64,000 bases of DNA from Ascidia mentula (Eukaryota > Chordata > Ascidiacea > Phlebobranchia > Ascidiidae). Shown here piece by piece: positions 1 through 35,255 of the stretch (the first letter of the stretch is position 1; each line of letters starts with the position of its first letter). The translations under genes and the position numbers were made by a program. The notes below the pieces were generated by a model. The model was not told where the DNA came from. It saw nothing but the letters and a program-made list of their open reading frames with translations, and searched no databases. Where the stretch lies: positions 11,289,001-11,353,000 of the forward strand of contig OX387205.1 in assembly GCA_947561715.1 (NCBI GenBank), given 5' to 3'.

Positions 1-3000
1 AACAACAACGTTTTTTAAAGATGATTTCAAACCAATACTCCACTTTTTTAAATGCCTGTATAACAATAATAAAGTATGTTGTAGTTTTGCACATTTAAAT
101 ATTAATTTACCAGACCGTTGCAAAATGTTCTCGGCATCACATATTGGAGAACGCAGCAACGCCTTCCCTTGATACAAATGCACCACTGCATGATCGTTAT
201 AACGTTTACATCATTTTAACGTTTGACGAAATTACTGCGGCAACGGGGTTGTCGATTGCACCTGTTGTTCATTGCGACACATTGGCCGCAACAAAACCTC
301 TTTGGTACAAATATTTGTCCCGTTAAGTGCAAACGTCCGCCAACTTCTGCCGAAGGCCACCTTATCTCCCGTTTATATACAACCAAGGGCACGCCTACCG
401 CGAAACCCACGTGACATTTCTTTCTCGTAACCGAACCATTGACGGCGCAGACAAGCGTGTTACGGTTTAATGATTTTTGTTTGCGCGTGAGTGTAACGTG
501 TGGTTGGGTGACTCGCGGCCTTAAAGTAGAACAACACAGAAGCCGTACTGTGCGGGTTCGGTTGTGACGCTGCTTTTGTGGAAAGTTATTGTGGTATTCT
601 TCAAGATTCTTCACCTTTGTTTGTAACCGTGTCTTCTGTAGAGATTTGCCGACACAAAAATCTTTGACTGAATACTTGCTGGCCTTGCTGCAAATATTTA
701 GGGTTTTGATGCCATTATAAATTTTAGTCTTGTTTGCAAAAACTACAAATAACAGTTTAATTTATTGATGTTGCGACATAATTCGTTATACATGCTCTTA
801 GTTTAAACCTTACTTGAAGCGAATTTGAGTTAAAGCACGTTGGCTGTAGAACTCAGTTTCAATATTTTGATAATTTTATATGGTTTTATGCGATATCATT
901 TCGGGCTTTGACTGAAAAAACGTCCCCTTTACCACCATCTGTCACACAAGACAAACAAACGCTTTCGATTTTAGCAGTCGGCAAATAAGCCCCGTTTCAT
1001 CCTAGTGTAAGATTATACCAATATATTTGACTCTGGTTTCATATAAATGGAAAATAGTCTTAATTGTTGAGAAATTGTGGTAACATTTTTTCACTTCTCC
1101 AATCGGACTTGTGGTGGAGTTAGGGATGGGCAATATAGAATATTACACTATTCTAAAACATTCTAGAATAGTTAAATCGAATCCGGAATACCGAATCCTG
1201 ATCTGTTTTTGTTTTAGCTTGTGCACTGAAGCACAATAAACGTAAAATATGTTTTTACATGATTCCAACAACAAAGCACAATCAAAGAATATTTATTGCA
1301 CTGTAAGATATTTAGGCTCTCTATGTGCTTGCCTGCCTAGTGATAACGAAATTTTGTGGCTGTCAAACCTGCACGTCACAACCGTAGCAGAAGATTGGCG
1401 AAAAACGATACGCATCGTATTTATTCGATTGTGAGCCGCGGCTTATAAAGTTGTTTAAGCTACCGTTTGTGATGCTTACAATTGAGGGCGACTTATTTTA
1501 TTTAATGTCAAGCCGATAATTTGTATGCGGCTCTAAGTTTCAATGAAACTCGCCTTTAACTCGCTCTGCCGTAGCAATGCGTTTTATCAATGATGTCGGA
1601 TGTCATACGCATTTGTCTGCACTTTCTCCACAAAAGAAACAAGGTTGTTGTTTCCTTATCCTATGACGTACAATGCAGATAAGAAGGGTCCTAATATTGA
1701 CGGGGCGTATCAACCACAATTGTCTGAGTATTAAACCGGACACCGTTGTCATTTAGTCATGACCCTCAAACCTGTGTTGAAATCTTAGGATTATAGTTAG
1801 GCATCAAATCCCGTCGTGAGTCAATTTTCAACTGGCGGCCCACGCACGTATGTGTTTACAGGCACTTGTTAGACTGCAATTACTTTCTTTTCGCTTAGGA
1901 TTCGAATCTTAACCTTTATCACGTTTTTTTTTCTATGATTGGTTTATAATTTACATAATACAGTTGGTCGCCAAGGCATTCTCACATGTACTGCGTTTCG
2001 TGACCCCCGGGAGGTGACGCTAGTAAGTCGCTAGTAACCGTTTGTTAAAGCTGTGGTTCCGAACCGTTCAGGAGTCCCTTTCATAAAATTGTTAAGCCAT
2101 CTGAGCCGCACGTAACATTCACCTGATATACTTTGGACGATCCAAGTTGTACAACCTGTGCAAGATATAGGGGGTGACGTCACAATTAGCAAAGATCAGA
2201 AGCCCTAAAATAATACAAAAATAGGGAAGCAGGAGAAGAACAAAATGTTTGTAAATTTTAATGGGAAGACAGCTCCCGCTTTTTCACCGATCCCCTAAAT
2301 TATCTCACAGACCCCTTGGGTGCCGCGAACACCAGTTTAGAAATCACTGTAGTAAGTTGTCCACGGGAGATTTTTAAGCTTGCGATGACTCTTTTCGACT
2401 GAAGAAAATAAAAATACTACACTGCGCTGTTGTTTAATTACCATTGGTGCTAAACTGCCAAAATCTCTATAAAACCGCGCAGTTTTGTGAACTGATGTAG
2501 GCTAGCTGTCATTTGAGATCGCTTCTTGAACTGATCATAGAAAGCATGTGCTTGGCGAATGTCACGTTTTCACAGAAAGGAATCCACAACTCTGTTGTCC
2601 AGGGGGGATACGAAACCTCTTTTCGATACAACAACCATGTTATTCTGCGTCCGTCTGTGTTACTGTGTAAAAGATGACATTGCAAAGTTCAAACCGTGTT
2701 TTACCAAGTTGCTGTAGGATTCCCAAATTTTTTTTCATCCGCTGAGACCCCGCCCCATTGTGCTAATGGCATGTAACTGTGGTGTAACTTAGGTAAACGC
2801 CCTTGTTCACGCCCCTATACTATACGCGCACTCGACACATCGTCCTCGAAGAGTCGAACTTTGTCCCCTGCGTTCTATTGACTCGTGGTAGAAATATGGG
2901 CGTACCACGAGACTGTTTGAAATACGACACCACGATGCCATTTTACCTACCTTGCTTCCCAGGAATGTTTTGAACTGAATGATGTTTTATCACGTTGGTC

Positions 3001-4437
3001 GCGAATTTTGACCATTATGTAATAATTCAAGGAAATCAAATTGATGTGTGTGGCTGATTCATCGTTAAATGGTTTGCTTCTTGTGTAAAACCTTCTTTTT
3101 TCTCGTTGATTTCCTAATTTGAGAACTAAATCAATGTTTTAAAAATGTCACAATAATCAGGCATTCGCATGGGATGGACGCTATTATTTCCTCACTAGAG
3201 GGCCTTACAAGTTTTTTCTTCAATCTTCAAATACCACGCTCTATTGTTTGGCCGACAATGTAATGAGGCACTGAGGATTTTCCCTGGTGACATTCTGACT
3301 GACGACGAATAAACATTCCACGTTCGTCCAAGAATTCCTGGAAACAATCCCATCACATCTTGGTTAAAGATTGTTGTCTACATTGGTTTGTTTGTCTCAG
3401 GTTGCGTGCGTAGAATGTTTGCCGATGTAGCCGAGCAGACTTCTGCAGAAGATGTTTTTGGTGCGGTCTGTTTGTAACCTTTCGAATCGAAGTTATGCGT
3501 GACATTCTGAGAACCAGGCGAGCATTCGATTTGTTGCTGTCCCTCCCACCCAGGTTGTCCCTCTGGTTTTCTGTGACATTTTTAGCTTCATGACGGGTCA
3601 TTGACACCTTACGACACAAGAATTCTTCCTAATCGGAATTGCTCTTCTGGCACTTAGTTTCCAAAGTGTTTATTGGAAACCAACGTTTCGTCTGCCATCC
3701 GGAGAGACTTCTTCAGGGTAGAGGACCCTGTTTTGAAATGGGAAACCTTGCGTGATGTTTCGAACTCCATGGTTACGTCGCAGCATAATATTACTTTTTC
3801 CAGAACTTTCTGCCAATATGTGGTTTATTCGTTTGACAACTTTACTACTAGTTTTTGTTTTTTTGTTGAGGAACATTTTTTCAAACTCTCCCTTTGGTGT
3901 TTGTGATTAAGTCTTTTGTTTTGTACCTTGGTCACGCAGTTATAGTTGTATTTTGTTGAAAAAGTTTTATTAAACCAGCCTTTTTGGCCGTTTTGACTAT
4001 ATTTTTCCCTGACTACTGTTTTCTGATAACTGTTCAAAAGCTGACAATTGGTCAGTAATACAAGTATCAACATACAGAACTTTAATAAATAAAAACATTT
4101 AAAAGCAATGAATAAGAAAGCGAAACACACAAAAACTTGCATTGATAAACTAATAAAAAAAACAAGACGGAACGGCGAAGTCACAAAAATCAGCTCATAA
4201 TAAAGAGTATGAAACAGAAATATAAACGACGAACTTCGTCAGGTCAGTGTAACAGTCCCTCTCATAACGCGATATGACTGGTGCTGTGTAATGTGTTGTC
4301 ACGTGGTTTCAAGGTCACCATGACCTTGTATAATGTGAGTAAAAGCGCGGGATGATATTAGTGCTACGCGCAGATTAAGCTGTAAGGTTTTTTCATGGAG
4401 ATATGGATTGGAACGCTTGGAAAATCATTCTTGCTCC
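1..4437. other. Unit 1 spacer between gene A and the next gene to the left
   Basis: No gene that I can defend. The stretch holds the duplicated 5' flank (1-1030), a segment shared only with the partial unit (about 1030-1900) containing a MITE relic, and then sequence shared by all units. Several frames recur in the other units (around 2570-2710, 2410-2640, 3400-3560 and 3830-4180) but are interrupted in at least one copy, so I treat them as non-coding or decayed. The corresponding spacers are 6178-9884 and 11675-15455. Confidence 0.6.
1416..1495. mobile_element. Degraded copy of the CGTATTTACTCGATTGTAAG MITE
   Basis: CGTATTTATTCGATTGTGAG, then CCGCGGCTTATAAA and ACAATTGAGGGCGACTTA, match the better-preserved element at 41929-42030 with scattered substitutions. 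It lies in the segment unique to repeat unit 1, so insertion came after, or was lost in, the other units. Confidence 0.6.
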
Positions 4438-6177
4438 TTATTTATTATTATTGCAGTGAAGTGGTTTCTTGTATCCGGTTTTGAACGTTTTAAGTATACA
4501 GTTATCACTCTGGGTCGATGCTGCTTGTCTGAAAAATAACATGAGAATAATAAATTCATGTAATTGGCAAATTGGGACAACGTGCGGATGAATGAAAAAT
4601 AAACAATGAACGAAAGAAGTATTTCTGAGTAATCGCAATATCGTAGATTCTTAAAAAAATCTCAGAAAATCCCTGTATCTTCTCTAGCTATTAAGTTTGT
4701 GCTGTAACTTGTCTGAATCTTTCCTGTCATGATTTGTCATCCTACATCTTGCAAAAATCCGGGAGGCAAGTGGGAGTTATCGCCTTCATTCCTGCCCATA
4801 CTACGCCTCTATTGTCTCCAACCTCGACCCAATGAAACCACGCTGAAGAATTCACGCCCTTTTATTCCCCTGTGCTGTCTGGCTTTGCGTTGGCAACCCG
4901 AATAATTGCGGGATTCGCACCGTCTTGGATGCTTATTGTACGCAGGTGGCTAATGGCATCAATAGTGGTGTCAAATTTGAATGCTCTGGTACTGTTTACT
5001 GCCTGACAAACATTCGCTAATATTAGGGTGTCTTTGTTTCTGGTGTTAAACGTATGTAGCATCTTGCCCTGGTGGTCCTAGGGTCGTAGGCGTTTGACGC
5101 AGTTTCCTATTGGGTGGATCAACAGTATCATCATATTGCGCAATCGCTTTATTTGCCAAACTGAAAACCCTTATTTGGGCATTTTTAATTACGGGGCGAA
5201 TTAGAGATCGTGAAACGCCAACAGACTTTTTTCATGGTTTCAACATTCACTCCTAAATTACGTTTTTAGCACATTAGTTTATTTTCCGAATATTTCATTG
5301 TACGTTTTGGTTGTCGGAATTGTATTGTTTTGCAGACAATATTGCCATTGACTCGATCTTTTTAAGTGAACCCTGCACAGACTTGTCAATATGTGCTGGC
5401 ATCAAGAAGTTTGCTAATTAATACAAAACTTCCGGTAATTTACGTTGCTTTTAAACAATGGAGGGTAATAATTATTATTTTAAAATGTTATCAACTGGAC
5501 TTACAACATGAAGAATTTGACATCAGGCCTGCTTAGTTCCTCCTTCATTTTTGTCAACTCAGTTTCAGACGAACTCCTTTTTCGCATTACCCTGTTTTTT
5601 CTTGTGTTCCGGAGCTCCCGGAGGAAAGCGCGCTCAATGCGACGAAGGAAGGCACGCTCTTCCACATGGTGCGGTTGTAGGACTTCGATTCTAGACAAAT
5701 AATATCCTATGTTACAAACGTTGGCATTTAAAAGCATCAACCATTGAGAGGTTTAGTTGAGTAAAAGGGTGTGCGTGGAATTTGTTTTATTCGGAAGAGC
5801 GGTGACAGAACAAGTTGATGTTGAGGCAATTTCTTTTTCACTGGAAGGTTCTCTACGCCAGCAAAATAATTATACGTTTTTTGCTTACAATTTCGAGATG
5901 GTCTTCAAAACGTCACTGTGACTTGAGGTCGTTTCTCCGTGGCTCGTTTCATCTGATCTGTGTGAAAATGCAACATGTTTTCTTGTATTTAAAAATAACT
6001 TTCGTACGTTTTAAGGACAAAACTTGTTTTAAAGAACGTGAAGCACTTTGTGGTTGATTTTGTGAGAATTTCAAATGTATTTCTTAATTTCAACACATAC
6101 CTCGACGTAGGGGCGGTGGATGTACACAAGACGGACGCAAAAATCAATGCGGTAACGAGTATCCAAGCTTTCTCCAT
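4438..6177 (-). CDS. Array gene A: small secreted two-cysteine protein
   Basis: Three exons, 117 residues, function unknown. Exon 1 (6101-6177) encodes 25 residues of signal peptide beginning MEKAWILVTALIFASVL and ends at donor GTATGT. Exon 2 (5505-5690) follows acceptor TTTGTCTAG. It encodes a strongly basic, helix-prone stretch (VEERAFLRRIERAFLREL), then an RKR site, then a serine-rich segment, and ends at GTAAGT. Exon 3 (4438-4528) follows acceptor TTATTTTTCAG. It carries two cysteines and ends in a stop that overlaps an AATAAA signal. Both introns are phase 2 and the frame stays open. The likely fate is secretion, perhaps with cleavage at RKR to release a peptide. An antimicrobial or signalling peptide would fit the charge pattern, but that is inference. 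An alternative last exon inside intron 2 is listed separately. Confidence 0.72.
5046..5169 (-). other. Conserved block in intron 2 of gene A, possible alternative terminal exon
   Basis: About 400 bp inside intron 2 (roughly 4760-5200; equivalents 10220-10670 and 15780-16240) is far more alike among the three copies than its surroundings. On the coding strand an AG at ATAAG, followed by one base and then VFSLANKAIAQYDDTVDP, would continue exon 2 in the correct phase and stop at 5046. Equivalent frames exist in B (10482-10629, altered at its end by an extra base) and C (16071-16194). The acceptor has a poor pyrimidine tract, so splicing here is uncertain. A second minus frame (10201-10521 in B) runs through the rest of the block, but is cut short in A. 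It may be an alternative exon, a regulatory element or a gene-conversion tract. Confidence 0.35.
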
Positions 6178-9100
6178 ATTTGTTGGTAGTTTTGTCAATG
6201 GCAATAGGAAAAAGGCGAAAACAACAACGTTTTTAAAGGGGATTCAAACCAATACTACACTTTTTTGCGGAATACCTGAATAACAACATTAAAGTATGTT
6301 GTAGTTTTGCACATTTTAGTATTAATTTACCAGACCGTTGCAAAATGTTTTCAGCACCACAAATATTTGAGAACGCAGCAACGCCTTTCCTTGGTACAAC
6401 TACACCACTGCATGATCGTTATAACGTTTACATCATTTTAACGTTTGACGAAATGACTGCGGCAACGGAGTTGTCAATTGCACCTGTTCTTCATCGCGAC
6501 ACATTGGCGGCAACAAAACCTCTTTGGTACAAATATTCGCCCCGTTAATTGCAAACTTCCGCCAACTTCTGTCGAAGGCCACCTCAACTCCCGTTTATAT
6601 ACAACCAAGGCCACGCCTACCGCGAAACCCACGTGATATTTCTTTCTCGTAACCGAACCATTGACGGCGCAGCGTTACGGCTGACTGATTCTTCGTTGCG
6701 CGTAAGTGTGCTTGCAACATGTGGTTGGGCGACGCAGCGAACTTGCGGTTTTAAAAGTCAAACAACACAGAAGCCGTACTGTGCGCGTTCGGTTGTGGCG
6801 CTGCTTGTGTGGAAAGTTAATGTGGTATTCTTCAACATTCTTCACCTGTGTTTGTAACCGTGTTTTCTGTAGGGATTTGTCATCACAAAACCACTTGCTG
6901 GGCTTGCTGCAGATACTTGGGCATTTGATGGCTTTATAAATGTTAATCTTGTTTGCAAAAACTACAAATAACAGTTTAATTTATTGCTGTTGCGACATAA
7001 TTCGTTATACATGCTCTTAGTTTAAACCTTACCTGAAACAAATTTGAGTTAAAGCACATTGGCTGTAGAACTCAGTTTCAATATTTGGATTATTTTATAT
7101 GGTTTTATGCGATATCATTTTGGGCTTTGACTGATAAAACGTCACCTTTACCACCATCTGTCACACAAGACAAACAAACGCTTTCGATTTTAGCATTCGG
7201 CTAATAAGCCTTGTTTCATCCTAGTGTAAGATTATACCAATATATTTGACTCAAATTGTTTCAAGTAAGGTTTAATTTAGGAGATTATATCAAAACGAAA
7301 TTTTATGGCTGCTAAAACGTATGTGTTTACAGGCACTTGTTAGGCTGCAATTACTTTTCGCTTGGGATTCGAATCTCAACCTTTATTACGTTTTTTTCCT
7401 GATTGGTTTATAATTTACATACTACAGATGGTCGCCAAGGCATTCACACATATACTGCGTTTCGTGACCTCCGGGAAGTGTCGCTAGTAACCGTATATTA
7501 AATCTGTGGTTCCGAACCGTTCAGTAGTCCCTTTCATAAAATTGTTAAGCCATCTGAGCCGCACGTAATATTCACCTGATGTTCTTGGGCGATTTAAGTT
7601 GTACAACTTGTTCAAGATATAGGGGGTGACGTCACAATTAGCAAAGATCACAAAATGTTTGTAAATTCTAATGGAAAGACAGCTCCCGCTTTTTCACCGA
7701 TCCCTAAACTACCCCATAGACCCTTTAGGGTGCCGCGAACCCCAGTTTAGAAATCATTAAAGTAAGTTGTCCACGGGAGATTTTTAAGCTTGCGATGACT
7801 GTTTTCGACAGAACAAAACAAAAATACTGCATTGCGCTGTTATTTAATTACCATTGGTCCTACACTTTTAAAATTTCTTGCAAAACCGCGCAGTTTAGTG
7901 AACTGATGTAGGCTAGCCGTCATTTGATGTCGCTTCTTGAACCGATCATAGAAAGCATGTGCTTGGCGAATGTCACGTTTTCGCACAATAGAATTCACAA
8001 CTCTGTTGTCCAGAGGGGATACGAAACCTCTTATCGATACAACAACCATGTTCTTGTCCGTCCGTCTGTGTTACAATGTGAAAGATGATACTGCAAAGTT
8101 CAAACCGTGTTTTACCAAGTTGCTGTAGATTCCCAAAATCTTTTTCATCCGCTGAGACGGACCCCGCCCCAAACAGCATGTAACTTGGGTACACGCCCTT
8201 GTTCACGCCCCTATACTACGCGCACTCGACACATCGTCCTCGACGAGTCGAACTTTGTCCCCTACGTTGTATTGACTCGTGGTAGAAATGTGGGCGTTTC
8301 AGGAGACTGTTTGAAATACGACACCCTGTCGCCATTTTACCTTCCTTGCTTACCAGGAATGTTTTGAACTGAATGATGTTTTGTCACGTTGGTCGCGAAT
8401 TTTGACATTTTGTAATATTTCAAGGAAATTAAATTGGTGTGCTGTGTGGCTAATTTAACGTTAGGTGGTTTGCCTCTTGTGTAAATCCTTTCATATCTTT
8501 TTTCTCGATGATTTCCTAATTCGAGAACCAAATCAATGTTTTAAAAATGTCACAATAATCATGAATTCGCATGGGATGGACACTGTTATTTCCCCACTAA
8601 AAGGTCCTACAAGTTTTTTCTTCAATTCACAAACACCATGCACGCTCTATTGTTTGGTCGACAGTGTAATTAGGCACTGAGGTTTTTCCCCGGTGACATA
8701 GTGACTGGCGATGAGTAAACATTCCACATTCGTCCCTGGATTCCTCGAACATTCCCATCACAGCGTGGTTAAAGGTTCTTGTCAACATTAGTTTGTTTGA
8801 CTCAGGTTGCGTGCGCACTGCGCAGCATGTTTGCCGATGCAGCCGACCAGACCTGTGCATGAGGTGTTTTTGTTGCGGTCTGTTTGCAACCTGTCGAATT
8901 CGTAAAGTTATGCGTGACATTCTGAGAACCAGGCGAGCATTGGAACTGTTGCTGTCCTTCCCACCCAGGTTGTACCTCTGGTTTTCTTTGACAATTTTCA
9001 GCTTCTTGATGGGTCATTGAAATCTTGCAACACAAGAGTTCAGCTGTTGCATAGTATCTACTTTTTGACGCAGGGACTGCGTTTATCGCAGGAGGCTTCC

Positions 9101-9884
9101 GAAAATAGCAACATTGTCACTATTTTGGTCACGATTTAGGGTGCAGCGTTTTGCACGACGTGTGTCAGTGAGGTGTGTTGACAACAGGGTAGAGGACCCT
9201 GTTTTGAAATGGGAAACCTCGCGTGATGTTTCGAACTCTGGTTAAGTCGCAGCATAGTATTACTTTTTCAAGAACCTTCTGCCGACATGTGGTTGAATCA
9301 TTGGACAACTTCACTACTAGATTTTGTTTTTTTGTTGAAGAAACTATTTTAAAACTGTCCCTTGGGTGTTTGTGACTAAGTCTTTTGTTTTGTACCTTGG
9401 TCACACAGTTATGGTCGTATTTTGTTGAAAAAAGTTTTATTAAACCAGGCTTTTTGTTCGTTTTGACTATATCTTTGCCTGATAACTTTGTCAAATTGTT
9501 TTCTGATAACTGCTCAGAAGCTGACAATTGGTCAGTAATACAAGTATCAACATACAACACTTTATTAAATGAAAACAATCAAACGCAATAAATCAGCAAC
9601 CAAAAAACGAAACAAGACGGAACCGCAGTCACAAAAATCAGCTTGTAATAAAGAGTAAGAAACAGAAATATAAACGGCGAACTTCGTCACGTCAGTGTAA
9701 CAGTCCCTCTCATAACGCGACATGACAGGTGCTGTGTAATGTGTTGTCACGTGGTTTCAAGGTCACCATGACTTTGTATAATGTGAGTAAAAGCGCGGGA
9801 TGATATTAGTGTTACGAGCGGTTTAAGCTGTAAGGTTTTTCACTGAGATCTGGGTAGGTTCACTTGGAAAAGCATTCTTTCTCC
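6178..9884. other. Unit 2 spacer
   Basis: The duplicated flank of gene A and the intergenic part of unit 2. A cysteine-rich plus frame at about 8793-8954 (CRCSRPDLCMRCFCCG, eight cysteines in all) sits between an acceptor-like TTTGACTCAG and a donor-like CCACCCAG/GTTGTA. It is kept in unit 3 (about 14310-14470) but interrupted in unit 1. I found no partner exons, so I do not call a gene. Confidence 0.5.
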
Positions 9885-11674
9885 TTATTTATTATGATCT
9901 GGATACTTTTTGCAGTGATCTGCGTTTGTGCTTCCGGCTTTGAACGCTGCAAGTTCGCAGTCTCTACGCGGGGTTGTTGTTGCTCGTCTGAAAAATAACA
10001 TGAGAATTATAAATTCATGTAATTGTAAAATTGGGACAACGTGCGGATGGATGAAAAATAAACAATGAACGAAAGAAGTATTTCAGAGTAATCGCAATAT
10101 TGTAGATTCTTAAAAAAATCTCAGGAAAACCCTGTATCTTTTCTAGCTATTAAGTTAGTACTTTAATTTGTCTGGGTGTTTCCTGTCATAATTTGTCAAC
10201 CTACAGAGTGCAAAAATCCGGGAGGCAAGTGGGAGTTATCGCCTTTATTCCTGCCCATACTACGCCTCTATTGTCTCCAACCTCGACCCAATGAAACCAC
10301 GCTGAAGAATTCACGCCCTTTTCTTCCCCTGTGCTGTCTGGCTTTGCGTTGGCAACCCGAATAATTGCGGGATTCGTACCGTCTTGGATGCTTATTGTAC
10401 GCAGGTGGCTAATGGCATCAATAGTGGTGTCAAATTTGAATGCTCTGGTACTGTTTATTGCCTGACAAACATTCGCTAATTTTAGGGTGTCTGTGTTTCT
10501 GGTGATGAACGTATGAAGCATCTTGCCCTGGTGGTCCTACGGTCGGTAGGCGTTTGACGCAGTTTCCTATTGGGTGGATCAACAGTATCATCATATTGCG
10601 CAATCACTTTCTTTGCCAAACCGAAAACCCTTATTTGGGCATTTTTAATTACGATGCCAATTAGAGCTCGTGAAACGCCAACATACTTTTTTCATGGTTT
10701 CAACATTGGCTTCGAAATTTCGTTTTTAGCAGATTAGTTTATTTTCTGAATATTTCATTTTTTGTTTTGGTTGTCGGAATTGTATTATTTTGCACGCAAT
10801 ATTGCCATTGACTCGATTTTTTTAAGTGATCCCTGCACAGACTCGTCATTATGTAGCTGGCAACAATAGGTTTGCAGAATAATGAAAAACTTTCGGTAAT
10901 TTTTGATACTTTTAAACAATAAAGTGTAATAATTATTATTTTGAAATATAGTCATCTGGACTTACAACATGAAGAATTTGACATCAGGCCTGGCCAGTTT
11001 CTGCTTATCTTTTTCAAATATACTTTCAGACGAACGGCTTTTTCGCAGTAGGTTGCTTTTTCTTGTGTTCTTGAGCTCCCGGAGGAAAGCTCGCTCAATG
11101 CGACGAAGGAAGGCACGTTCTTCCACATGGTGCGGTTGTAGGACTTCGATTCTGAACAAATAATATCCTATGTTACAAACGTTGACATTTAAAAGCATTA
11201 ACCATTGAGAGGTTTAGTTAAATATTAGAAAATGTGTGGAATTTGTTTTGTTTGAAAGAGCGTTGACAGAACAAGTTGAGGTTGGGGCGATTTCTTTATT
11301 TTGCTTGAAGAGTCTCTACGCCAGTTAAATAATTAAGGTGGTTTGTGAATAAAACGATTGTACGTTTTTTTGCTTACAATTTCGAGAGGGTTTTCAAAGC
11401 GTCACTGTGACTTGATATTGTTCCTCCGTGGTTCGTTTCATGTGATCTGTGTTAAAATGCAAGATGTTTTCTTGTATTTAAAAATAACTTTCGTACGTTT
11501 TGAAGACAAAACTCGTTTTAATAAAGGTTGTCAGGCACTTTGTGCTTGATTTTGTTAGAATTTTAAATGTTTTTATCAATTTCATTAGAACACTTACCTC
11601 GACGTAGGGGCGGTGGATGTACACAAGACGGACGCTAAAATCAATGCAATAACGAGGATCCAAGCTTGCTCCAT
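9885..11674 (-). CDS. Array gene B: small secreted two-cysteine protein
   Basis: Second tandem copy, 121 residues. Exon 1 is 11598-11674 (signal peptide beginning MEQAWILVIALILASVL, donor GTAAGTG). Exon 2 is 10966-11151 (acceptor TTTGTTCAG, donor GTAAGTCC). Exon 3 is 9885-9987 (acceptor ATTTTTCAG). Signal peptide and basic helix nearly match copy A. The middle of exon 2 differs strongly: RKR is replaced by RKSR and most residues of the following segment change, before the shared RPDVKFFM. Exon 3 reads RATTTPRRDC, keeps the spacing of its two cysteines, and ends four residues later than in A. An AATAAA signal overlaps the stop. Phases match those of A and C. Confidence 0.72.
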
Positions 11675-14600
11675 ACTTGTTTGTAGTTTTGTCGATGGCA
11701 ATAGGAAAAAGGCGAAAACAACAACGTTTTTAAAGATGATTTCAAACCAATACTACACTTTTTTGCGGAATACCTCAATAACAATAATAAAGTATGTTGT
11801 AGTTTTGCACATTTAAATATTACTTTACCAGACCGTTGCAAAATGTTCTCAGAACCACAAATATTTGAGAACGCAGCAACGCCTTCCCTTGGTACAAATT
11901 CACCACTGCATGATCGTTATAACTTTAACGTTTGACGAAATGACTGCGGCAACGGGGTTGTCAATTTCACCTGTTCTTCATCGCGACACATTGGCCGCAA
12001 CAAAACCTCTTTGGTACAAATATTCGCGTCCGCCAACTTCTGCCGAAGGCCACCTTAACTCCCGTTTATATACAACCAAGGGCACGCCTACCGCGAAACC
12101 CACGTGACATTTCTTTCTCGTAACCGAACCATTGACGGCACAGACAAGCGTGTTACGGCTGGCTGATTCTACGTTGTGCGTAAGTGTGATTGTAACATGT
12201 GGTTGGGCGACGCAGCGAACTTGCGGCTTAAAAAGTCAAACAACACAGAAACCGTGCTGTGCGGGTTCGGTTGTGGCGCTGCTTGTGTGGAAAGTTATCG
12301 TGGTATTCTTCAAGATTCTTCACCTTTGTTTGTAACCGTGTTTTCGGATTTGCCAACACAAAAACACTTGCTGGCCTTACCGCAGATATTTGGGCATTCG
12401 ATGGCTTTATAAATGTTAATCTTGTTTGCAAAAACTACAAATAACAGTTTAATTTATTGCTGTTGCGACATAATTCGTTATACATTAAACCTTACTTGAA
12501 ACAAATTTTAGGTAAAGCACATACTCAGTTTCAATATTTGGATTATTTTATGTTGTTATCCGATATCATTTCGTGCTTTGACTGATAAAACGTCCCCTTT
12601 ACCGCCATCTGTCACACAAGACAAACAAACGTTTTCGATTTTAGCATTCGGCTAATAAGCCCCGTTTCATCCTAGTGTAAGATTATACCAATATATTTGA
12701 CTCAAATTATTTCAAGTAAGGTTTAATTTAGGAGATTATGTCAAAACGAAATTTTGTGGCTGCTAAAACGTATGTGTTTACAGGCACTTGTTAGGCTGCA
12801 ATTACTTTCTTTTCGCTTGGGATTCGAATCTAAACCTTTATTACGTTTTTTCTCTATGATTGGTTTATAATTTACATACTACAGTTGGTCGCCAAGGCAT
12901 TCACACATATACTGCGTTTCGTGACCTCCGGGAAGTGGCGCTAGTAAGTCGCTAGTAACCGTATATTAAAGCTGTGGTTCCGAACCGGTCAGAAGTCCCT
13001 TTCATAAAATCGTTAAGTCATCTGAGCCGCACGTAACATTCACCTGATGTTCTTGGGCGATTTAAGTTGTACAACTTGTGCAAGATAGAAGGGGTGACGT
13101 CACAATTGGCAAAGATCAGAAACCCTAAAATAATACAAAAATAGGGAAACAGGAGAAGAACAAAGTAAAAATAAATTTTAATGGGAAGACTGCTCTCGTG
13201 TTTTCACTGACCCCCTAAACTATCCAACAGACCCCTTGGGGTGCCGCGAGTATCAGTTTAGAAATCACTGAAGTAAGTTGTCCACGGGAGATTTTACGTT
13301 TGTGATTACCTTTTTCGACAAGACAACTTAAAAATACTGCATTGCGCTGTTATTTAATTACCATTCGTGCTAACTGCCAAAATTCCTAATAAAACCGCGC
13401 AGTTTTGTGGACTGATGTAGGCTAGCCGTCATTTGAGGTCGCTTCTTGAACTGAACATAGAAAGCATGTGCTTGGCGAATGTCACGTTTTCACACAATAG
13501 AATCCACAACTCTGTTGTCCAGGGGGGATACGAAACCTCCCATCGATACAACAACCATGTTCTTGTGCGTCAGTCTGTGTTACTGTGTGAAAGATGACAT
13601 TACAAAGTTCAAACCGTGTTTTACCAAGTTGCTGATGTAGGATTCCCAAAATCTTTTTCATCCGCTGAGACGGACCCCCCATTGTGATAATGACATGTAA
13701 CTGTAGTGTAACTTGGGTACACGCCCTTGTTCACGCCCCTATACTACGCGCACTCGACACATCGTCCTCGAAGAGTCGAACTTTGTCCCCTACGTTGTAT
13801 TGACTCGTGGTACAAATGTGGGCGTTCCACGAGACTGTTTGAAATACGACACCACGATGCCATTTTACCTTCCTTGCTTGCCAGGAATGTTTTGAACTGA
13901 ATGATGTTTTATCACGTTGGTCGCAAATTTTGACATTTTGTAATATTTCAAGGAAATCAAATTGGTGTGCTGTGTGGCTAATTTAACGTTAGGTGGTTTG
14001 CCTCTTGTGTAAATCCTTTCATATCTTTTTTCTCGATGATTTCCTAATTCGAGACTTAGGTCAATGTTTCAAAAATGTCACACTAGTCATGAATTCGCAT
14101 GGGATGGACGCTGTTATTTCCCCACTAAAAGGTCTTTTTCTTCAATTCACAAATACCACGCTCTATTGTTTGGCCGACAGTGTAATTAGGCACTGAGGAT
14201 TATCCCCGGTGACATAGTGACTGGCGATGAATAAACATTCCACATTCGTCCCTGGATTCCTCGAAACATTCCCATCACAGCGTGGTTAAAGGTTCTTGTC
14301 AACATTAGTTTGTTTGACTCAGGTTGCGTGCGCACTGCGCAGCATGTTTGCCGATGCAGCCGACCAGACCTGTGCATGAGGTGTTTTTGTTGCGGTCTGT
14401 TTGCAACCTGTCGAATTCGTGAAGTTATGCGTGACATTCTGAGAACCAGACGAGCATTGGAACTGTTGCTGTCCTTCCCACCCAGGTTGTAACTCTGGTT
14501 TTCTTTTACATTTTCAGCATGGGTCATTGAAATCTTGCGACACAAGAGTTTAGCCTCTGTTGCATAGTATCGACTTTTTGACGCAGGGAATGCTGTGAAC

Positions 14601-15455
14601 AACCGTTTATCCCCTGATGCCTCCTAAAATAGCAACTTTGTCACTATTTTGGTCACGATTTAGGGTGTGCCTACTTGCAGCGTTTTGCACGACGTGTGTC
14701 AGTGAGGTGTGTTGACAACAGGGTAGAGGACCCTGTTTTGAAATGTGAAACCTCGCGTGATGTTTCGAACTCTGGTTAAGTCGCAGCGTAGTATTACTTT
14801 TTCCAGAACCTTCTGCCGATATGTGGTTGATTCGTTGGACAACTTTACTACTAGATTTTGTTTTTTTGTTGAAGAAACTATTTTCAAACTGTCCCTTTGG
14901 TGTTTGTGACTAAGTCTTTTGTTTTGTACCTTGGTCACGCAGTTATAGTTGTATTTTATTCAAAAAAAATTGAATAAACCAGCCTTTTTGGTCGTTTTGA
15001 CTATATCTTTGCCTGACAACTTAGTCGAATTGTTTTCTGATAACTGCTCAGAAGCTGATAATTGGTCAGTAATACAAGTATCAACATACAAAACTTTAAT
15101 AAATAAAAACATTCAAAAGCAATGAATAAGCAAGCGAAACTCACAAAAACTTGCATTGATAAACTAATAGAAAAAAACGAAACAAGACGGAACCGCGAAG
15201 TCACAAAAATCAACGAATAATAAATAGCAAGAAACAGAAATATAAACGAACTTCGTCAGGTCAGTGTAGCAGTACCTCTCATAACGCGACATGGCTGGTG
15301 CTGTGTAATGTGTTGTCACGTGCGGTTTCAAGGTCACCATGACCTTGTATAATGTGAGCAAAAGCGCGGGATGATATTAGTGTTACGAGCAGTTTAAGCT
15401 GTAAGGTTTTTCAGTAAGATCTGGATTGGGACGCTTGGAAAAGCATTCTTGCTCC
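11675..15455. other. Unit 3 spacer
   Basis: Same content as the unit 2 spacer. A plus frame at 13713-13895 and its unit 2 equivalent (ending 8367) read RPCSRPYTTRTRHIVL and share a stop. Unit 1 carries a two-base length difference there that breaks the frame. No splice partners or start could be assigned. Confidence 0.5.
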
Positions 15456-17226
15456 TTATCTTCTGTGATCTGGATACTTATTGCAGTGATCTGTGTTCAT
15501 GTTTCCGGCTTTGAACGCTTCAAGTTGGCAGTCTCTACGCGGAGTTGTTGTTGCTCGTCTGAAAAATAACATTGGAATTATAAATTCATGTAATTGTCAA
15601 ATTGGGACAAAGTGCGAATGGATGAAAAATAAACAATGAACGAAAAGAGTATTTCTGAGTATTCGCAATATCGTAGATTTAAAAAAAAAATTCAGAAAAT
15701 CCTTGTATCTTCTCTAGCTATTAATGCTGTAAATTGTCGGGGCCTTTCCTGTCATGATTTGTCATCCTACATCTTGCGGAAATCCGGGAGGTAAGTGGGA
15801 GTTATCGCCTTCATTCCTGCCCATACTACGCCTCTATTGTCTCCAACCTCGACCCAATGAAACCACGCTGAAGAATTCACGCCCTTTTCACCCCCTGTAC
15901 TGTCTGGCTTTGCGTTGGCAACCCAAATAATTGCGGGATTCGCACCGCCTTGGATGCTTATTGTACGCAGGTGGCTAATGGCATCAATAGTGGTGTCAAA
16001 TTTGAATGCTCTGGCACTGTTTATTGCCTGACAAACATTCGCTAATTAGAGGGTGTCTTTGTTTCTGGTGTTAAACGTATGTAGCATCTTGCTCTGGTGG
16101 TCCTAGGGTCGTAGGCGTTTGACGCAGTTTCCTATTGGGTGGATCAACAGTATCATCATATTGCGCAATCACTTTCTTTGCCAAACCGAAAACCCTTATT
16201 TGGGCATTTTTATTTAAGGGGCGAATTTGAGCTCGTGAAACACCAACAAACTTTTTTGATGGTTTCAACATTCACTCCTATATTTCGTTTTTAGCACAAT
16301 AGTTTGTTTTCTAAATATTTCATTTTTCGTTTTAGTTGTTGAAATTGTATTGTTTTGCACACAATATTGCCAATGACTCGATCTTTTTAAGTGATCCCTG
16401 CACAGACTCGTCAATATGTAGCTGGCAACAAGAGGTTTGCTGAATAATGCAAAACTTCGGTAATTTACGATGCTTTTAATCAATGGAGGGTAAGAATAAT
16501 TTTTATTTTGAAATATGGTCAACTGGACTTACATGTAGAATTTGGCATCAGGCCTGTTCAGTATCTCTCTAGCTTCTGCCAATATAGTTTCAGACGAACT
16601 CCTTCTTCGCAGTACGCTGCTTTTTCTTGTGTTCCGGAGCTCCCGGAGGAAAGCGCGCTCAATGCGACGAAGGAAGGCACGCTCTTCCACATGGTGCGGT
16701 TGCAGGACTTCGATTCTAGACAAATAAAATCCTATGTTACAAACGTTAGCATTTAAAAGCACCAACCATTGAGAGGTTTAGTTAAATAAAAAGGAATTTC
16801 TGGTGTTTGGAAGATCGGTGAAAGAACAAGTTGATGTTGAGGAGATTTCTTTATTTTACTAGAAGACGGTTCACGACAGTAAAATCTTTACGACTAACAG
16901 CAAGAGTAGCACCATAATTGAGATAGTATGACACGATTGTACGTTTTTTTGCTTACAATTTCGAGATGGTTTTCAAAACGTCATTGTGACTTGATATCGT
17001 TTCTCCGCGGTCCGTTTCATGTGGTCTGTGTAAAAATGCAACATGTTTGCTTTTTTGAAAACAAAACTCATTATAAAGAACGTAAAGCTCTTTGTGGTTG
17101 ATTTTGTTAGAATTTTAAATGTATTTCTTAATTTCATTAGAACACTTACCTCGACGTAGGGGCGGTGGAGGTACACAAGACGGACGCAAAAATCAATGCA
17201 ATAACGAGGATCCAAGCTTGCTCCAT
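15456..17226 (-). CDS. Array gene C: small secreted two-cysteine protein
   Basis: Third tandem copy, 120 residues. Exon 1 is 17150-17226 (signal peptide beginning MEQAWILVIALIFASVL). Exon 2 is 16533-16715, three bases shorter at its 3' end than in A and B. Because the change is exactly one codon next to the donor, splice phase is preserved, which argues strongly that this is a translated exon. Exon 3 is 15456-15558. Its N-terminal third matches B (RATTTPRRDC) and its tail is unique (ending PDHRR). The basic cluster is RRR instead of RKR, and the segment after it is again different. The AATAAA seen next to the stop in A and B is not kept here. Confidence 0.72.
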
Positions 17227-19200
17227 ACTTGTTTGTAGTGTTGTCGATAGCAATAGGAAAAAAGGAAAAGGCGAAAACAACAACGTTTTGTAAAGGTGAT
17301 TTCAAACCAATACTAGACTTTTTTAAATGCCTGAATAACAACATTAAAGTATGTTGTAGTTTTGCACATTTAAGTATTAATTTCCCAGATCGTTGCAAAA
17401 TGTTCTCAGAACCACAAATATTTAAGAACGCAACAACGCTTTCCCTTGATACAAATACACCACTGCATGATCGTTATAACTTTTACATCTTTTTAACGTT
17501 TGTCGAAATGACTTCGGCAACGGGGTTGTCAATTGCACCTGTTCTTCATCGCGACACATTGGCCGCAACAAAACCTCTTTGGTACAAATATTCGCCCCGT
17601 TCACTGCAAACGTCCGCCAACTTCTGCCGAAGGCCACCTTAACTCCCGTTTATATACAACCAAGGGCACGCCTACCGCGAAACCCACGTGACATTTCTTT
17701 CTCGTAACCGAACCATTGACGGCACAGACAAGCGCGTTACGGCTGACTGATTTTTCGTTGCGCGTAAGTGTGATTGTAACGTGTGGTTTGATGACGCAGC
17801 GAACTTGCGTCTTGAAAGTCAAACAACACAGAAACCGTACTGTGCGGGTTCGACTGTGGCGCTGTTTCTGTGGAAAGTTTATGTAGTATTCTTCAAGATT
17901 CTCCACCTTTGTTTGTAACCGTGTCTTCTGTAGGGATTTGCCAACACAAAAATGTTCGATTGAATACGCTGGCCTTGCTGCAGATATTTGGGCATTTGAA
18001 GTCATTATAAAATTTAATCTTGTTTGCAAAATATACAAATAACAGTTTAATTGATTCATGCTCCTAGTTTAATATTTGGATTATTTTGTGTTGTTATTTG
18101 ATCGGGCTTTGACTGCTAAAACGTCCCCTTTGCCACCATCTGTCACACAAGACAAACAAACGCTTTCGATTTTAGCATTCGGCAAGTAAGCCCCGTTTCA
18201 TCCTAGTGTAAGATTATATCAATATATTAGACTCTGGTTTCATAATAAATGGAAAATAGTCTTAATTATTAAGAAATTGTGGTAGCAATTATTCACTTCT
18301 CCAATCGGACTTGTGTAGGAGTACAGGTGGTTTACAGAATCTTGTTTATGCTTGTCAAACTAAGCCGGTAAGGTCCATATCAGATTGTTGTTGGAAGATT
18401 ATCAATCGTTTTTTTTTGTAAACAAAGTTTAGTGAAACTAACTCTCATAAGAATATTTGTAACGTGCTTTGAACTTTTGTATCTCAAAAAAGGTCGCTTG
18501 TGAATAATATTGCCTATAACCAGGCCTTTACTCAGCTTATGAAAGCTGTGCTATATAATGTTTTCATTGTGTAGCCATGTATAGACCTCCGTAATGGCAT
18601 TCCCTCACGTTGCTTCGTATTTTCGAGCCAGTGAGCAACCGCGGAATATTCCAATTGATGTTTTTGAATCAAAAAATGTACCGGGTGCATCTATCCCTGC
18701 CTCTGACGTCACCCCTCACCAAGTAAGCCCACACCTTTAAGCCCTTAATGGTGAACGTCCGGATGGACAAGCGTGGGGATTACCTAGATGGAACAAATTG
18801 CACTCTTCCTTGCACTTATATTGGCCTTTCTTGATATCATCCGCATTTGTCTGTCTATTCTCCGATATCTCCAACGCACCACGTATGAATCACAAAGAAA
18901 CAAGGTCGTTGTTTCCTTATCCTATGACGTACATTGCAGATAAGAAGGGGTCCTAATATTGACGGGGCGTATCATCCACAATTGTCTGAGCATTAAACCG
19001 GACACCGTTGTCATTTAGTCATGACCCTTAAACCTGTTTGGAAATCTAAGGATTATAATTCGGCATCAAATCCCGTCGTGAGTCAATTTCACCAAGCGGC
19101 CCACGCACGTATGTGTTCACAGACACTTGTTGGCCTGCAAAAACTTTCATTAGTTTCTTTTCGCTTCGTTTAGGTTTCGAATCTAACAAACTTTCTTTAC
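17227..19200 (-). repeat. 5' flank of gene C and partial fourth repeat unit
   Basis: 17276-18200 aligns with 1-1030, 6220-7240 and 11717-12700, the stretch just upstream of each array gene. 18235-18320 and 18880-19200 align with unit 1 (about 1030-1115 and 1640-1910). The piece between differs completely from that in unit 1, implying independent insertion or replacement. Similarity stops near 19200. Several frames of 60-150 codons here are not supported by splice sites and are probably chance frames in duplicated flank. Confidence 0.8.
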
Positions 19201-19711: not shown

Positions 19712-21766
19712 TAACGCACACTCCTTGTTTGTTTTGATTAAACGCTTCAAAGTTAAGGATGTGTGAGCCTTGCATGATCTGCTGCGCACGGCTCTGGGTT
19801 AATGCATATTCGTGTATATTATGTGGACGTCCATCTACTACTACTGCTGACGTGGCAAATGAAGGTTCCGCATATTTGATTTCTTGAAGGTTGCGGCACG
19901 AAAGAGTGTGACGTCACAAATATATTTGCATACCCTACGAAACATGTCGTTGATTGAGATGCGTTTTCATGCTGCAGGAGAGGGGTGCAACCGGTGGGCA
20001 ATGGGGGTCCTTGAATTTCGTTTGGTTTGAAACAGGAATTTCTACCTCAAAGGCTTGTTCTCATGAAAAAAACTATTGTTTCTCAGGGTTAATGTGATAA
20101 TGTCAGTTAATAAACAATAATAGGGCCTACACGAAATGTTCCAAATACACTTCGTTTAAACGAGGCGAGGCACTTTACGCTGTTAGTTAAAATCTCACCA
20201 ACTTGACCTTGCTATAAAAATGTCGCTGTTTTAAGATGACGACCAGAAAGTTAACAGGCCCCAGAATAGACCACCGATTTCCCGCTACCAACCACAAAAA
20301 TAGCCAATTCACCAAAAAAGCATCGAAATGCTGCCATTCAGTGCAGTGACCTGTAGATAAGATCTCGCACACCAATGATGAAAATGTGCGACACATTACG
20401 TATGATATCGTATCGTTACACCACATTGCCCCTTATCCAATGAATCATACCGAAGCAATTTTATCTACAGACTTTGTTTTTGGTGCATTTAAGACAGTCC
20501 ATTGTCTGAGGGTGACTGAGCTCCCTGTGTTTCTGTCCGTAGACATTTCAGACAGGTGCAAGTCTATAAATTCATTATCAGCTTAAAAATCTAAAAAACA
20601 CCGTTTTGACGTCATTTGTTAATTTCAAGCAACCACAGTAAATTCTGGTGGACTTGGTGATTCATACGCCCAAGACTTTATTTGCGCATTGGTGAAGCTT
20701 AACATTTTGGTGTTTTGAAACTTCCAAGTTTACGTCATCAAAAACTAATACAAGCTTGTCTTGTCCCTCACGCAATGTATTGCAATGGTTGTTGCAAATG
20801 CTTAAAATGGCGCCCCAATGGATGAAGATATTTCTGCTTTGAATAATATTAGTGTTAATCGTATAAATATTTTCAATAACATATGCAGAACTAATATCTC
20901 ACACTCTATGTCCCGGTATTTGTATCACATTATTCCTAAACTGTTTGAAGCCAATGCAGCGTAACGCATACGTCAGTTTTATGTATTTGCAAAAGTTTTG
21001 GAGAAAAAGTATTTCACAAGAATAGAAGTGAAAAACACGTACACCAAGTCTAGAAAATCATTAGAAAATTATGTCTTTTTCAAAAAGAACTGGCTTAGTA
21101 GATGTACAGAAATTCCTTGTTTGGTGGTAAAGCTTTTCAACTGCAAATTCCCAGTGCAGCTATAAGATCTTGAGCTGTGCGAACCCTTGTTATCATAGTT
21201 TCCATGCACGGCGAAGACGATCCCATACTGAAAAACAAACGTATTCAGAAACGTTAAAATAACGTTCAATAAATAAACGTTGGTATCGCAACTGGAATTG
21301 CGATTTTTTCAAAAACATTTCACAAAATGTGCAGTGAAAACTTTTGTTTTAGTCTCGGAATACGAAGCTCAGCACAACTGTACGGGTAATAACCCTGTCA
21401 GCATTGCCAGAAAAATACCAAACTGTTGATTGAAACAAGTCTATAGCGAACAAAATAAAGTGTAAATATTTTCCAAGTCGATCCACACGGATGCGAAAAT
21501 AACAGTGCAGTAAAGCGGCTCGGTGTTTCGTTGACATCGTGCCCGAAACCAACAATACGTTAGTGTTAATGACCCAAAACAAAGCTCGCGCAGTGTGCAA
21601 GTATGTTTGTTGCTGTTTACGGGGTAACTTGTGCTTGCATGAGTTGTGATAAGAACTTGTTTGTGGTCAACTGAGTGTGCTGCTGGCATCTGCAGGCAAT
21701 GTCCAACGAGAGCTAATGTTTTGATTTCGCGAAGATCCATTCCATCCCAATTTTTAAGGGAACTGT

Positions 21767-22423: not shown

Positions 22424-23668
22424 TTATTGATGCTTAAAACGGAATGGCGAATGAAGGTTTACGACGGTTTTTCGGTACCATAAAAACGTCTCTTTCTGGA
22501 GAAAGTCAATGATTTGGTCGACTTCTTGCACGGCAGTTAAAGCCTTGGGGCTATGTTTACTGATGTTAGGAGCTTCGGGAAACGTTAACCGGATATTTGA
22601 TTTTCCTATCGTGAAACATGGTTTAATCCATGCTCGTGATAACATCTCTACTTGACAGGTTTCAGTTTTCGCATCATGCTGCTTCTGTTGTTTATCAAGT
22701 TTCCTCATATCCGTAAAACTATCGACACGAATCCAAAGTGGATTAAAATCCATCCTCAGAAGGCCTCAAACCGAATGTTTGAAAAAGCCTGTTTGACGAT
22801 AGCATTCAATTATTCGCCTGAGGTTCGAGTTTACTGACAAATGTATCGTTTAAAAATACCTGTCAGGTCATTTTACACATAGAAAAAAATTACCAAAGTT
22901 GTTTTTCAAAATTTAATCAGTCATAAGATATCGACCGGTGAAGTGTATTTTTGTGACATGAACTTTCGTAATACAGGCTATAGTTTGGCATACCATTTTC
23001 AAACCTTGTCATCCAATGCAACGCACAACACATACCACTAATATTTCACCAGCTAACTTTTACAATAGAAAGGTGTACTAACCGGGAAGCCAAGTGTTTT
23101 GCAAACTTCATTTTCGCCTCTTGGTCTTTAAGTTGTGATGCCATGCTCGTGAAATCCGCCATCGGGTATCGCTTTCGGACAACTTCGTGGCTCCGTTTGA
23201 GGGCGCTGGGGAGTTCATTGGTGTCGATCGTCTCGTGCTCGTCGGCTTGAATTGGGAATTGACCAATAAGGTTTAGGAGGTCTTCGTCGTTGAGGTCCGG
23301 CAACTCTCGCAATAATAAAAGGTCTTGTAGCGTGAGCTGATCTTTCATTGATTCCTTTTGGTCGGGTGCTGCATCGGTATCTGTCACAGGTCTGTGGAAG
23401 AAATAAGAAAAGTTTTAGCTGGACATTGCCATGAACAAAAATCTCTGTTGAGTGTGATTAAAGTGGGCCGTCAATAATCAAGGTTTAAACAAGAAAAATC
23501 TATTTTGTAAACCTTTTTGGGTTACAACCATAAAATAAAACATACAGATACGTTTTGCGCTACAGAATATGAAGAGTACAAAGGTTCTTACCTTGACAAA
23601 ACACCTCCGTGACACATATAAGTAACGAGGCATAAACAAAGACTGATGGAGTACAAAATTGTTGCCAT
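22424..23668 (-). CDS. Secreted prohormone-like protein with a glucagon/secretin-like segment
   Basis: Three exons, 238 residues. Exon 1 (23592-23668) encodes a signal peptide beginning MATILYSISLCLCLV and ends at GTAAGAAC. Exon 2 (23083-23391) follows acceptor TTTCTTCCACAG and ends at GTTAGT. Exon 3 (22424-22754) follows CCTTCTGAG. Both introns are phase 2. After an acidic, leucine-rich propiece comes VVRKR and then YPMADFTSMASQ, with F6, T7, S8, S11, A18, F22 and L26 when numbered from Y1. That spacing matches the glucagon/GLP-1 and GHRH peptide family without gaps, though D/E3 is missing. RKR suits proprotein convertase cleavage; the C-terminal cleavage site is unclear (LASR at the exon junction). 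Exon 3 adds 109 residues that I do not recognise. Family membership is inference. Confidence 0.7.
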
Positions 23669-35184: not shown

Positions 35185-35255
35185 ACTGCGGTTTGCCGAA
35201 CTGTTTGAACTGATGGTGACCGTCTTCTGAACTGTTCTCGACGCCGTTGCGGATG

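Follow-up and report, generated by a model that had tools for sequence, protein, structure and literature searches.

In the Hessian fly the SSSGP-1 genes, which encode small secreted salivary gland proteins, form a tandem cluster of seven genes within 15 kb. Members of this cluster are reported to show evidence of recombination with one another and a dN/dS that exceeds 1 for the mature part; the signal peptide, the promoter, the UTRs and the intron are described as conserved and the mature coding region as diversified (PMC2955719). For the conotoxin precursors, a separate exon for the mature peptide is reported, with a three-exon structure in eight of the nine superfamilies studied (PMC3862624). 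The Ci-MAM and Ci-PAP peptides of Ciona are linear and cationic, were screened at a length of 50–100 residues, are cysteine-free, in most cases with an anionic rear part, and are reported to carry no basic processing motif (PMC7387483).

Here we describe an array of small secreted-looking proteins in a window of 64,000 nucleotides of genomic DNA from the ascidian Ascidia mentula. The mitochondrial code of the host is likewise that of an ascidian, in support of the tunicate origin assumed earlier. Three genes of the array lie within the window, all on the minus strand (6177–4438, 11674–9885 and 17226–15456; Table 1), and each has three exons, GT-AG boundaries and phase 2 at both introns and one stop. 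The array continues to the left of the window, where the partial unit at the edge has its gene just outside; the ATG lies 49 bp to the left of the first base. In total six copies were found between positions 11274326 and 11306226 of contig C73, a count which the genome search labels as a lower bound, and all six are intact. They encode proteins of 112–121 residues. An earlier note on this DNA had reported three full units of 5.5–6.2 kb with intact genes. Its exact coordinates and the intactness of the genes stand, but not the number, as six copies were found, and the unit length is right only approximately, as the spacing of 5497–6526 bp reaches slightly beyond. That start, both splice phases and stop are kept in all three window copies was stated correctly (both introns also keep GT..AG and are in phase 2), and the background divergence of roughly 10 percent agrees with 135 changes at 1386 intron sites between copies 4 and 5 (9.7%). 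When copies 2, 4, 5 and 6 of the six are compared pairwise, with pairs that are not independent of each other, the gap runs are multiples of three in 7/7 cases in the exons and in 19/52 cases in the introns.

Table 1. Positions in the window of the array genes, the array and the single-copy neighbour gene.
Feature	Position	Strand	Remark
Copy 4 exon 1	6101..6177	-	signal-like peptide; 77 nt, ends AG|gt, phase 2
Copy 4 exon 2	5505..5690	-	conserved basic helix, basic cleavage-like site, start of variable region; phase 2
Copy 4 exon 3	4438..4528	-	tail type A; two cysteines, C-x14-C, stop
Copy 4 intron 2 core	4746..5212		lowest divergence among the measured non-coding parts (mean 0.048)
Copy 5 exon 1	11598..11674	-	gene model
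Copy 5 exon 2	10966..11151	-	gene model
Copy 5 exon 3	9885..9987	-	tail type B
Copy 6 exon 1	17150..17226	-	gene model
Copy 6 exon 2	16533..16715	-	gene model
Copy 6 exon 3	15456..15558	-	tail type B
Tandem array, part within window	1..19166		whole array extends from C73 position 11271888, about 17.1 kb beyond the left edge of the window, to 19166
Neighbour exon 1	23592..23668	-	signal-like peptide; 77 nt, ends AG|gt, phase 2
Neighbour exon 2	23083..23391	-	309 nt, basic RKR site, phase 2
Neighbour exon 3	21137..21227	-	91 nt, two cysteines, C-x20-C

Elsewhere in the genome no convincing copy was found, each search yielding a single chance-level match (C72, E 2; C52, E 1.04); with the tail of copy 6 as query the type A tails of the array itself were missed, so equally diverged relatives could be missed as well, whereas the copy 4 query recovered these tails. 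Each unit is likely to carry one gene, as had been claimed, when judged from the 34 ORFs of at least 49 aa in one intergenic stretch. Three of these are open in all six places, and among the eight best-kept of the 34, with a pooled pN/pS of 0.51–1.18, seven are interrupted in one copy or more by gaps that shift the frame. This falls short of proof, as the eighth (8219–8383, minus strand, 54 aa) is open in all aligned copies, with a pN/pS of 0.80. Upstream of the genes the aligned 1500 bp have a mean divergence of 0.193 over 15 pairs, and the proximal 250 columns one of 0.085. A hidden exon in the conserved intron 2 was rejected, as the frames are broken by single-base gaps and stops, and so was a structured RNA, as a 261-bp piece of the intron folds less well than its shuffles, whichever strand is taken (z 0.95 and 1.62). 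In the genome search this piece turned up in the six units and nowhere else.

The N-terminus encoded by exon 1 is hydrophobic and signal-like and, as judged by eye, has a plausible cleavage site; in this sense the proteins do look secreted. Exon 2 opens with a conserved basic amphipathic helix, which had been proposed before and is numerically correct: in all six copies the hydrophobic moment is 0.57–0.60, the hydrophobicity H 0.09–0.12 and the charge +5. A single-sequence model of the copy 4 exon 2 peptide gives one long helix (mean pLDDT 82.5). Behind the helix, all six copies carry a basic run (RRSR, RKSR, MRKR or LRRR) before SS(S)E, which fits a putative furin/prohormone-convertase site. 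The remainder of exon 2 together with the whole of exon 3, here called the rear part, comprises 51–56 residues with two invariant cysteines, the two-cysteine tail of the earlier note, and has a net charge of +2 to +6. The proteins had been said to belong to no recognised family, and this holds in our searches as well: nothing scored above the cut-off when three of the six array proteins and residues 1–129 of the neighbour protein were scanned against Pfam, where two weak sub-threshold names (T5orf172, EMG1) were set aside, and a PDB sequence search gave no match for a single array protein or for a part of the neighbour protein (best E 0.48 and 9.4). Vanabins were set aside as an identity on cysteine number.

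The array proteins resemble Ci-MAM and Ci-PAP in being small, secreted-looking precursors with a basic amphipathic helix; in the Ciona peptides the signal peptide is reported to be conserved within a family (PMC7387483). The helices of all six copies lie within the limits given there for hydrophobicity (0–0.6), moment (0.1–1.0) and charge (3–10). On the contrary, the array proteins are longer than the 50–100 residues screened and have two cysteines instead of none, and the anionic C-terminal pro-region of most Ciona members is replaced by a basic rear part. They also carry a basic site, and in the array it is the helix that is conserved and the rear part that varies.

As judged from the aligned codons, we could show that the front of the protein is under purifying and the rear under diversifying selection. 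Omega is 0.22 for the front (signal peptide and basic helix) and 3.11 for the rear (2dlnL 14.57, p=1.3e-4), in tests that assume one tree, an assumption which gene conversion between copies violates. The rear of exon 2 alone, without type A (copies 2, 5 and 6), yields an omega of 3.49 (p=0.0033), and exon 3 alone (copies 4, 5 and 6) yields 2.95 (p=0.0024). When the split is moved to the basic site, omega of the front rises to 0.57 and can then not be told from 1 (p 0.19). Compared to the next 150 bp of the intron, the divergence of the exon 2 rear is higher at P<0.05 in four of six pairs (the others being copies 4 and 5, P=0.23, and copies 2 and 5, P=0.16); compared to all introns, there is an excess likewise in four of six pairs (copies 2 and 6, P 0.053; copies 2 and 5, P 0.072).

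Exon 3 occurs in two types, A and B, which differ at 29–31% of the sites, whereas the introns differ at 9–10%. The changes between types amount to 26/91, 28/91 and 26/91, against 7–9% in the flanking 300 bp (P 7e-7 to 2e-6), and in the alignment the divergence jumps at the splice site of exon 3 and falls after the stop. Some non-coding windows of 100 columns match this divergence, up to 0.294, the highest lying near the indel-rich part of intron 1. Within the pairs of copies 5 and 6, 2 and 6, and 2 and 5 exon 3 is not above its flanks (P 0.58, 0.24 and 1), and between copies 2 and 5 it is even less divergent than the introns (P 0.0029). Read in this way, the exon 3 signal depends on a single A/B split and a few changes among the B tails. 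When exon 3 is read in a shifted frame, the changes between A and B appear to be under constraint (pS 0.47–0.50, pN 0.24–0.27). A different reading frame was considered and set aside: copy 6 is interrupted by a stop in it, copies 5 and 6 show no constraint there (0.096 vs 0.106) and, in our reading, no donor in exon 2 leads into it. Copy 3 is a chimera in which the front of one gene is joined to the tail of another, and comparison of the copies shows that they exchange segments by recombination.

The array has tandem intact copies and a constrained leader followed by a diversifying mature part; families with these features form a kind and not a family by homology. With SSSGP-1 it shares the tandem arrangement, a conserved front end (with a signal-like peptide in the array), a diversified mature part with dN/dS above 1 and the recombination between members. 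Unlike in these insect effectors, the conserved front of the array includes a helix behind the signal peptide and the variable part spans two exons; the likeness considered is one of pattern. The conotoxins differ in that the array peptides have two cysteines only and come from an ascidian, a relation in sequence being judged by the Pfam and PDB scans alone. The conserved front against the diversifying rear, the A/B tail divergence bounded by the exon and the front-tail chimera go beyond the earlier note.

A single-copy gene adjoins the array on the same strand. It shares with the array genes the 77-nt exon 1, phase 2 at both introns and a 91-nt exon 3 with two cysteines, as in type A, a plan for whose frequency we have no null. 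It differs in its exon 2 of 309 nt, its acidic pro-part (net -8) and its C-x20-C in place of C-x14-C. The protein has 158 residues with a rear part of 58 residues behind the basic site. No similarity in sequence above shuffles was found to four of the six copies or in one profile alignment. A likeness to secretin/PACAP, first noticed by eye, found no support, as PF00123 (Hormone_2) had no match in the first 129 of the 158 residues or at the locus. The surroundings, up to about 40 kb away, also include a receptor guanylate cyclase, with a catalytic exon at 60155–60454 on the minus strand.

We suggest, with a probability of about 45%, that the array encodes six secreted pre-pro-peptides which would release a variable two-cysteine peptide of 51–56 residues, most likely for defence. 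The precursor would be secreted and then cut at the basic run, which would set the rear part free as a peptide closed by a single disulfide loop. The conserved helix might be a pro-part or a second, membrane-active product. Duplication, positive selection and reshuffling of fronts and tails would provide each animal with a different set of peptides against a changing partner, which is most likely microbial in a defence peptide family. Because diversifying selection is confined to the rear and the front is conserved, two of the functions proposed earlier, immune effector and reproductive or allorecognition factor, fit the array; an ordinary peptide hormone, proposed as well, is spoken against by the same pattern. 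That the front helix lies within three limits of the Ciona antimicrobial screen supports defence. Against it stand the rear part, which is only mildly basic, unlike classical antimicrobial peptides, and the published Ciona candidates, which were selected for the absence of cysteines and reportedly have no basic processing motifs (PMC7387483).

The main rival, though in our view a somewhat unlikely one, is gamete or self/non-self recognition, in which the peptides would serve as marks on eggs, follicle cells, sperm or tissues, with their diversity kept up by co-evolution with a partner or by an advantage of rare types. The pattern of selection and recombination is equally expected here, and self-sterility in Ciona depends on multiallelic gene pairs including the v-Themis proteins of the egg coat, but these known recognition proteins are fibrinogen-like and PKD1-like (PMC9265791) and nothing like the array proteins. 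A stronger form of this idea, which we regard as speculative and very unlikely, would make the array an undescribed ascidian locus of self/non-self or gamete recognition, with six diversifying and recombining secreted peptides on one conserved scaffold, copy number and front-tail combinations varying between haplotypes, the neighbour as ancestor and the guanylate cyclase possibly as a linked receptor partner. Both the neighbour with its same exon plan and the guanylate cyclase exon could also speak for a cluster of hormones or neuropeptides, in which a C-terminal cystine-loop peptide would act on a receptor, the neighbour being the conserved member; a signal, a pro-part, a basic site and a two-cysteine peptide is a hormone-like plan. 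We consider this unlikely, and less likely than defence, as an omega of about 3 within the peptide itself runs opposite to the way in which hormones usually evolve, no Pfam hormone family was found among the proteins scanned, the secretin-family profile included, and the rings of array and neighbour differ in length from those of natriuretic peptides. The natriuretic peptide ring has 17 residues (C-x15-C).

Toxin-like peptides for venom, the tunic or the deterrence of predators would share the evolutionary pattern. They are the least probable of these readings, as there are only two cysteines and we know of no venom apparatus in ascidians. Nevertheless, in one study most conotoxin superfamilies showed a three-exon structure, and changes as well as trinucleotide indels clustered in the exon of the mature peptide (PMC3862624). 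It is also very unlikely that the pattern is an artefact of recombination, in which types A and B would be old, conversion would have homogenised their surroundings and the tail would not be specially selected. Segment exchange between copies is indeed observed, the shifted-frame pattern in exon 3 would agree, and for the Hessian fly array homogenisation has been proposed as a cause of the conserved non-coding regions (PMC2955719). However, an artefact leaves unexplained the break of divergence at the exon edges and dN > dS in the rear of exon 2, which is in frame with the conserved front.

Sequence families of this type are usually found where an organism meets microbes, prey, hosts or mates, and their rapid evolution makes them hard to detect by homology searches. 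Tunicates are the closest relatives of vertebrates, and to our knowledge few families evolving in this way have been reported from them. The array supplies exact coordinates, gene models and a testable prediction, namely that the tail would be the active and polymorphic part. In addition, individuals would be expected to vary in copy number and in the combinations of fronts and tails.

The earlier note had proposed, from the sequence alone, three tandem three-exon genes for small secreted proteins, and all three gene models were borne out with exact coordinates on the minus strand, with GT..AG introns both in phase 2 and one stop codon. Exon 1 measures 77 nt, exon 2 183–186 nt and exon 3 91–103 nt. 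A search of the genome (195.8 Mb, 79 contigs) yielded six copies, all located on contig C73, and outside these one chance-level match per protein search (E values of 2 and 1.04). Numbered from left to right, copies 4–6 are the genes of the window and copies 1–3 lie to its left, the nearest with its start codon 49 bp before the first base of the window. In all six copies the reading frame is open from start to stop, and the start codons are spaced by 6376, 6526, 6226, 5497, and 5552 bp. The repeat array ends on the right at about window base 19166 and on the left 17.1 kb beyond the window; no convincing second gene per unit was found (34 ORFs listed, 8 tested). The mitochondrial contig of the same assembly, C79, carries a COX1 gene that fits the ascidian mitochondrial code best, with AGA/AGG as glycine (18 codons), TGA as tryptophan (7), and ATA as methionine (23), and many of the 18 AGA/AGG codons fall at glycines generally regarded as universally conserved.

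Features in and around the window (window positions unless a contig or flanking piece is named)
Feature	Position	Strand	Observation
Six-copy array	C73 11274326-11306226	minus in copies 4–6	
Conserved intron 2 stretch, copy 4	5212-4746		
Single-copy neighbour gene	23668-21137	same as array	exon 1 of 77 nt ending in AG before gt; phases 2 and 2
Intermediate filament-like gene	~28600-35800	minus	exon 30269-30727, PF00038, 27.6 bits, below curated cut-off of 40
Apparent secreted, cysteine-containing multi-exon gene	37594 onward	plus	signal-like start by eye; exon near 39947-40159 without Pfam match
tRNA match, the only one from Rfam	43167-43240		34.3 bits
Tandem repeat	54687-54927		30-base unit, 8 copies, 91% matches
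Receptor-type guanylate cyclase, catalytic domain exon	60155-60454	minus	51.8 bits, above cut-off
Receptor-type guanylate cyclase, exon	62931-63290	minus	below cut-off
Receptor-type guanylate cyclase, kinase-like exon	L022 (flanking piece) 586-933	minus	33.4 bits, above cut-off; gene apparently extends beyond right end of window
CDC6-type ATPase-like ORF, by eye	L018 (left of array) 3220-4362	minus	first piece 3598-4362 without Pfam match
ORF resembling leucine-rich repeat protein, by eye	L019 (left of array) 582-1349	minus	
Insertion between copies 1 and 2	C73 11278950-11279150		~200 bp; parts match 43193-43301 (89%), which adjoins the tRNA match, and 26522-26716 (90-91%)

The encoded proteins have 112–121 residues and a hydrophobic N-terminus that probably directs secretion. 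A basic amphipathic helix follows which is identical or changed by one conservative substitution across all copies, copy 1 lacking five residues ahead of it; the best 18-residue window has a hydrophobic moment of 0.57–0.60 and a charge of +5 in all six. In a single-sequence structure model the exon-2 peptide of copy 4 is predicted as a single helix (residues 6–52, mean pLDDT 82.5). After the helix come a basic run (KRSS.., RSRSS.., RRRSS..), which is a putative cleavage site, a variable stretch and a tail whose two cysteines (C-x14-C) are the same in every copy and may form a disulfide. Sequence searches of Pfam with three copies and of PDB with one copy gave no name above threshold in these two databases.

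The front of the gene (exon 1 and the first part of exon 2) and its rear (the rest of exon 2 and exon 3) evolve in opposite ways. Among copies 2, 4, 5, and 6 the front is less changed than the introns in five of six pairs (P < 0.05; copies 4 and 5, P = 0.096), whereas the exon-2 rear is more changed than the introns in four of six (P < 0.05). In a codon model of copies 4–6, omega is 0.22 in the front part and 3.11 in the rear part, and a rear omega of 1 is rejected (2ΔlnL 14.57, p = 1.3e-4). With the split moved to column 66, which is about the putative cleavage site and falls within the predicted rear part by one or two residues, the rear omega is 3.19 (p = 1.6e-4). The front omega then increases to 0.57, a value that does not differ significantly from 1 (p = 0.19), because the linker that precedes the site also varies. 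Taken alone, the exon-2 rear of copies 2, 5, and 6 gives 3.49 (p = 0.0033) and exon 3 of copies 4–6 gives 2.95 (p = 0.0024).

Exon 3 occurs in two forms, type A in copies 1, 3, and 4 and type B in copies 2, 5, and 6. Between copy 4 and copies 5, 6, and 2 the exon differs at 26/91, 28/91, and 26/91 sites, compared with 135/1386, 126/1347, and 120/1322 sites in the introns, and the alignment is near-identical up to the exon-3 acceptor and again soon past the stop. In the upstream region and the first two exons copy 3 matches copy 2 (0–0.8% different up to exon 2, 29.7% in exon 3), but within intron 2 it switches to copy 4; the exons of copies 1 and 4 are identical except that copy 1 lacks 15 bases, in frame. 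Thus, fronts and tails are being recombined. The conserved stretch of intron 2 with its five counterparts, found in these six units only, diverges less among the copies than any other non-coding part that was measured (mean 0.048, against 0.09–0.155 for other intron parts); it contains no open frame, and a 261-bp part of it did not appear structured by folding. The insertion between copies 1 and 2 has no counterpart in the remaining aligned units and resembles a dispersed element of tRNA origin.

Several observations weaken the case for selection on the rear. Within type B, exon 3 is no faster than its flanks in any of three pairs, and the exon-2 rear is more divergent than the 150 intron bases that follow it in four of six pairs (P < 0.05). 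Some non-coding windows match exon 3 in divergence (up to 0.294, highest near a stretch of intron 1 rich in indels). Over 15 pairs, the aligned upstream flank of 1500 bp has a mean divergence of 0.193 (0.085 in the proximal 250 columns). The A/B differences of exon 3 also look synonymous-rich in another frame (pS 0.47–0.50, pN 0.24–0.27). This frame contains a stop in copy 6, copies 5 and 6 do not display the synonymous-rich pattern, and by our reading of the sequences no exon-2 donor leads into it; the main frame is kept. The exon-3 omega nevertheless deserves less weight than the exon-2 result, for which the conserved first part of exon 2 sets the reading frame.

The neighbour gene encodes a basic RKR site and has an exon 3 of 91 nt with two cysteines. 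The shared exon plan may reflect common descent with the array genes. Local alignment scores against four of the six copies were not above those of shuffled sequences, and a profile alignment returned a 14-column chance match only (E 0.44). By eye the neighbour showed a likeness to secretin-family peptides, but the profile of that family gave this no support.

Among the titles listed in searches of an open-licence library (15 each of 1,193 and of 172 papers), none describes an ascidian family of this kind, which is not proof of novelty. The array falls outside the linear antimicrobial class of Ciona, because that class is cysteine-free and short with an anionic rear part, and none of these features is found here. 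In kind, the array matches the SSSGP-1 cluster of the Hessian fly: both combine a conserved leader, a diversifying part, which in the array would be released, and tandem copies with recombination and conserved nearby non-coding sequence (PMC2955719). The pattern is also alike in kind to that of conotoxin genes (PMC3862624). For the array proteins we rank a putative role as defence peptides first, gamete or self-recognition second and a hormone function third.
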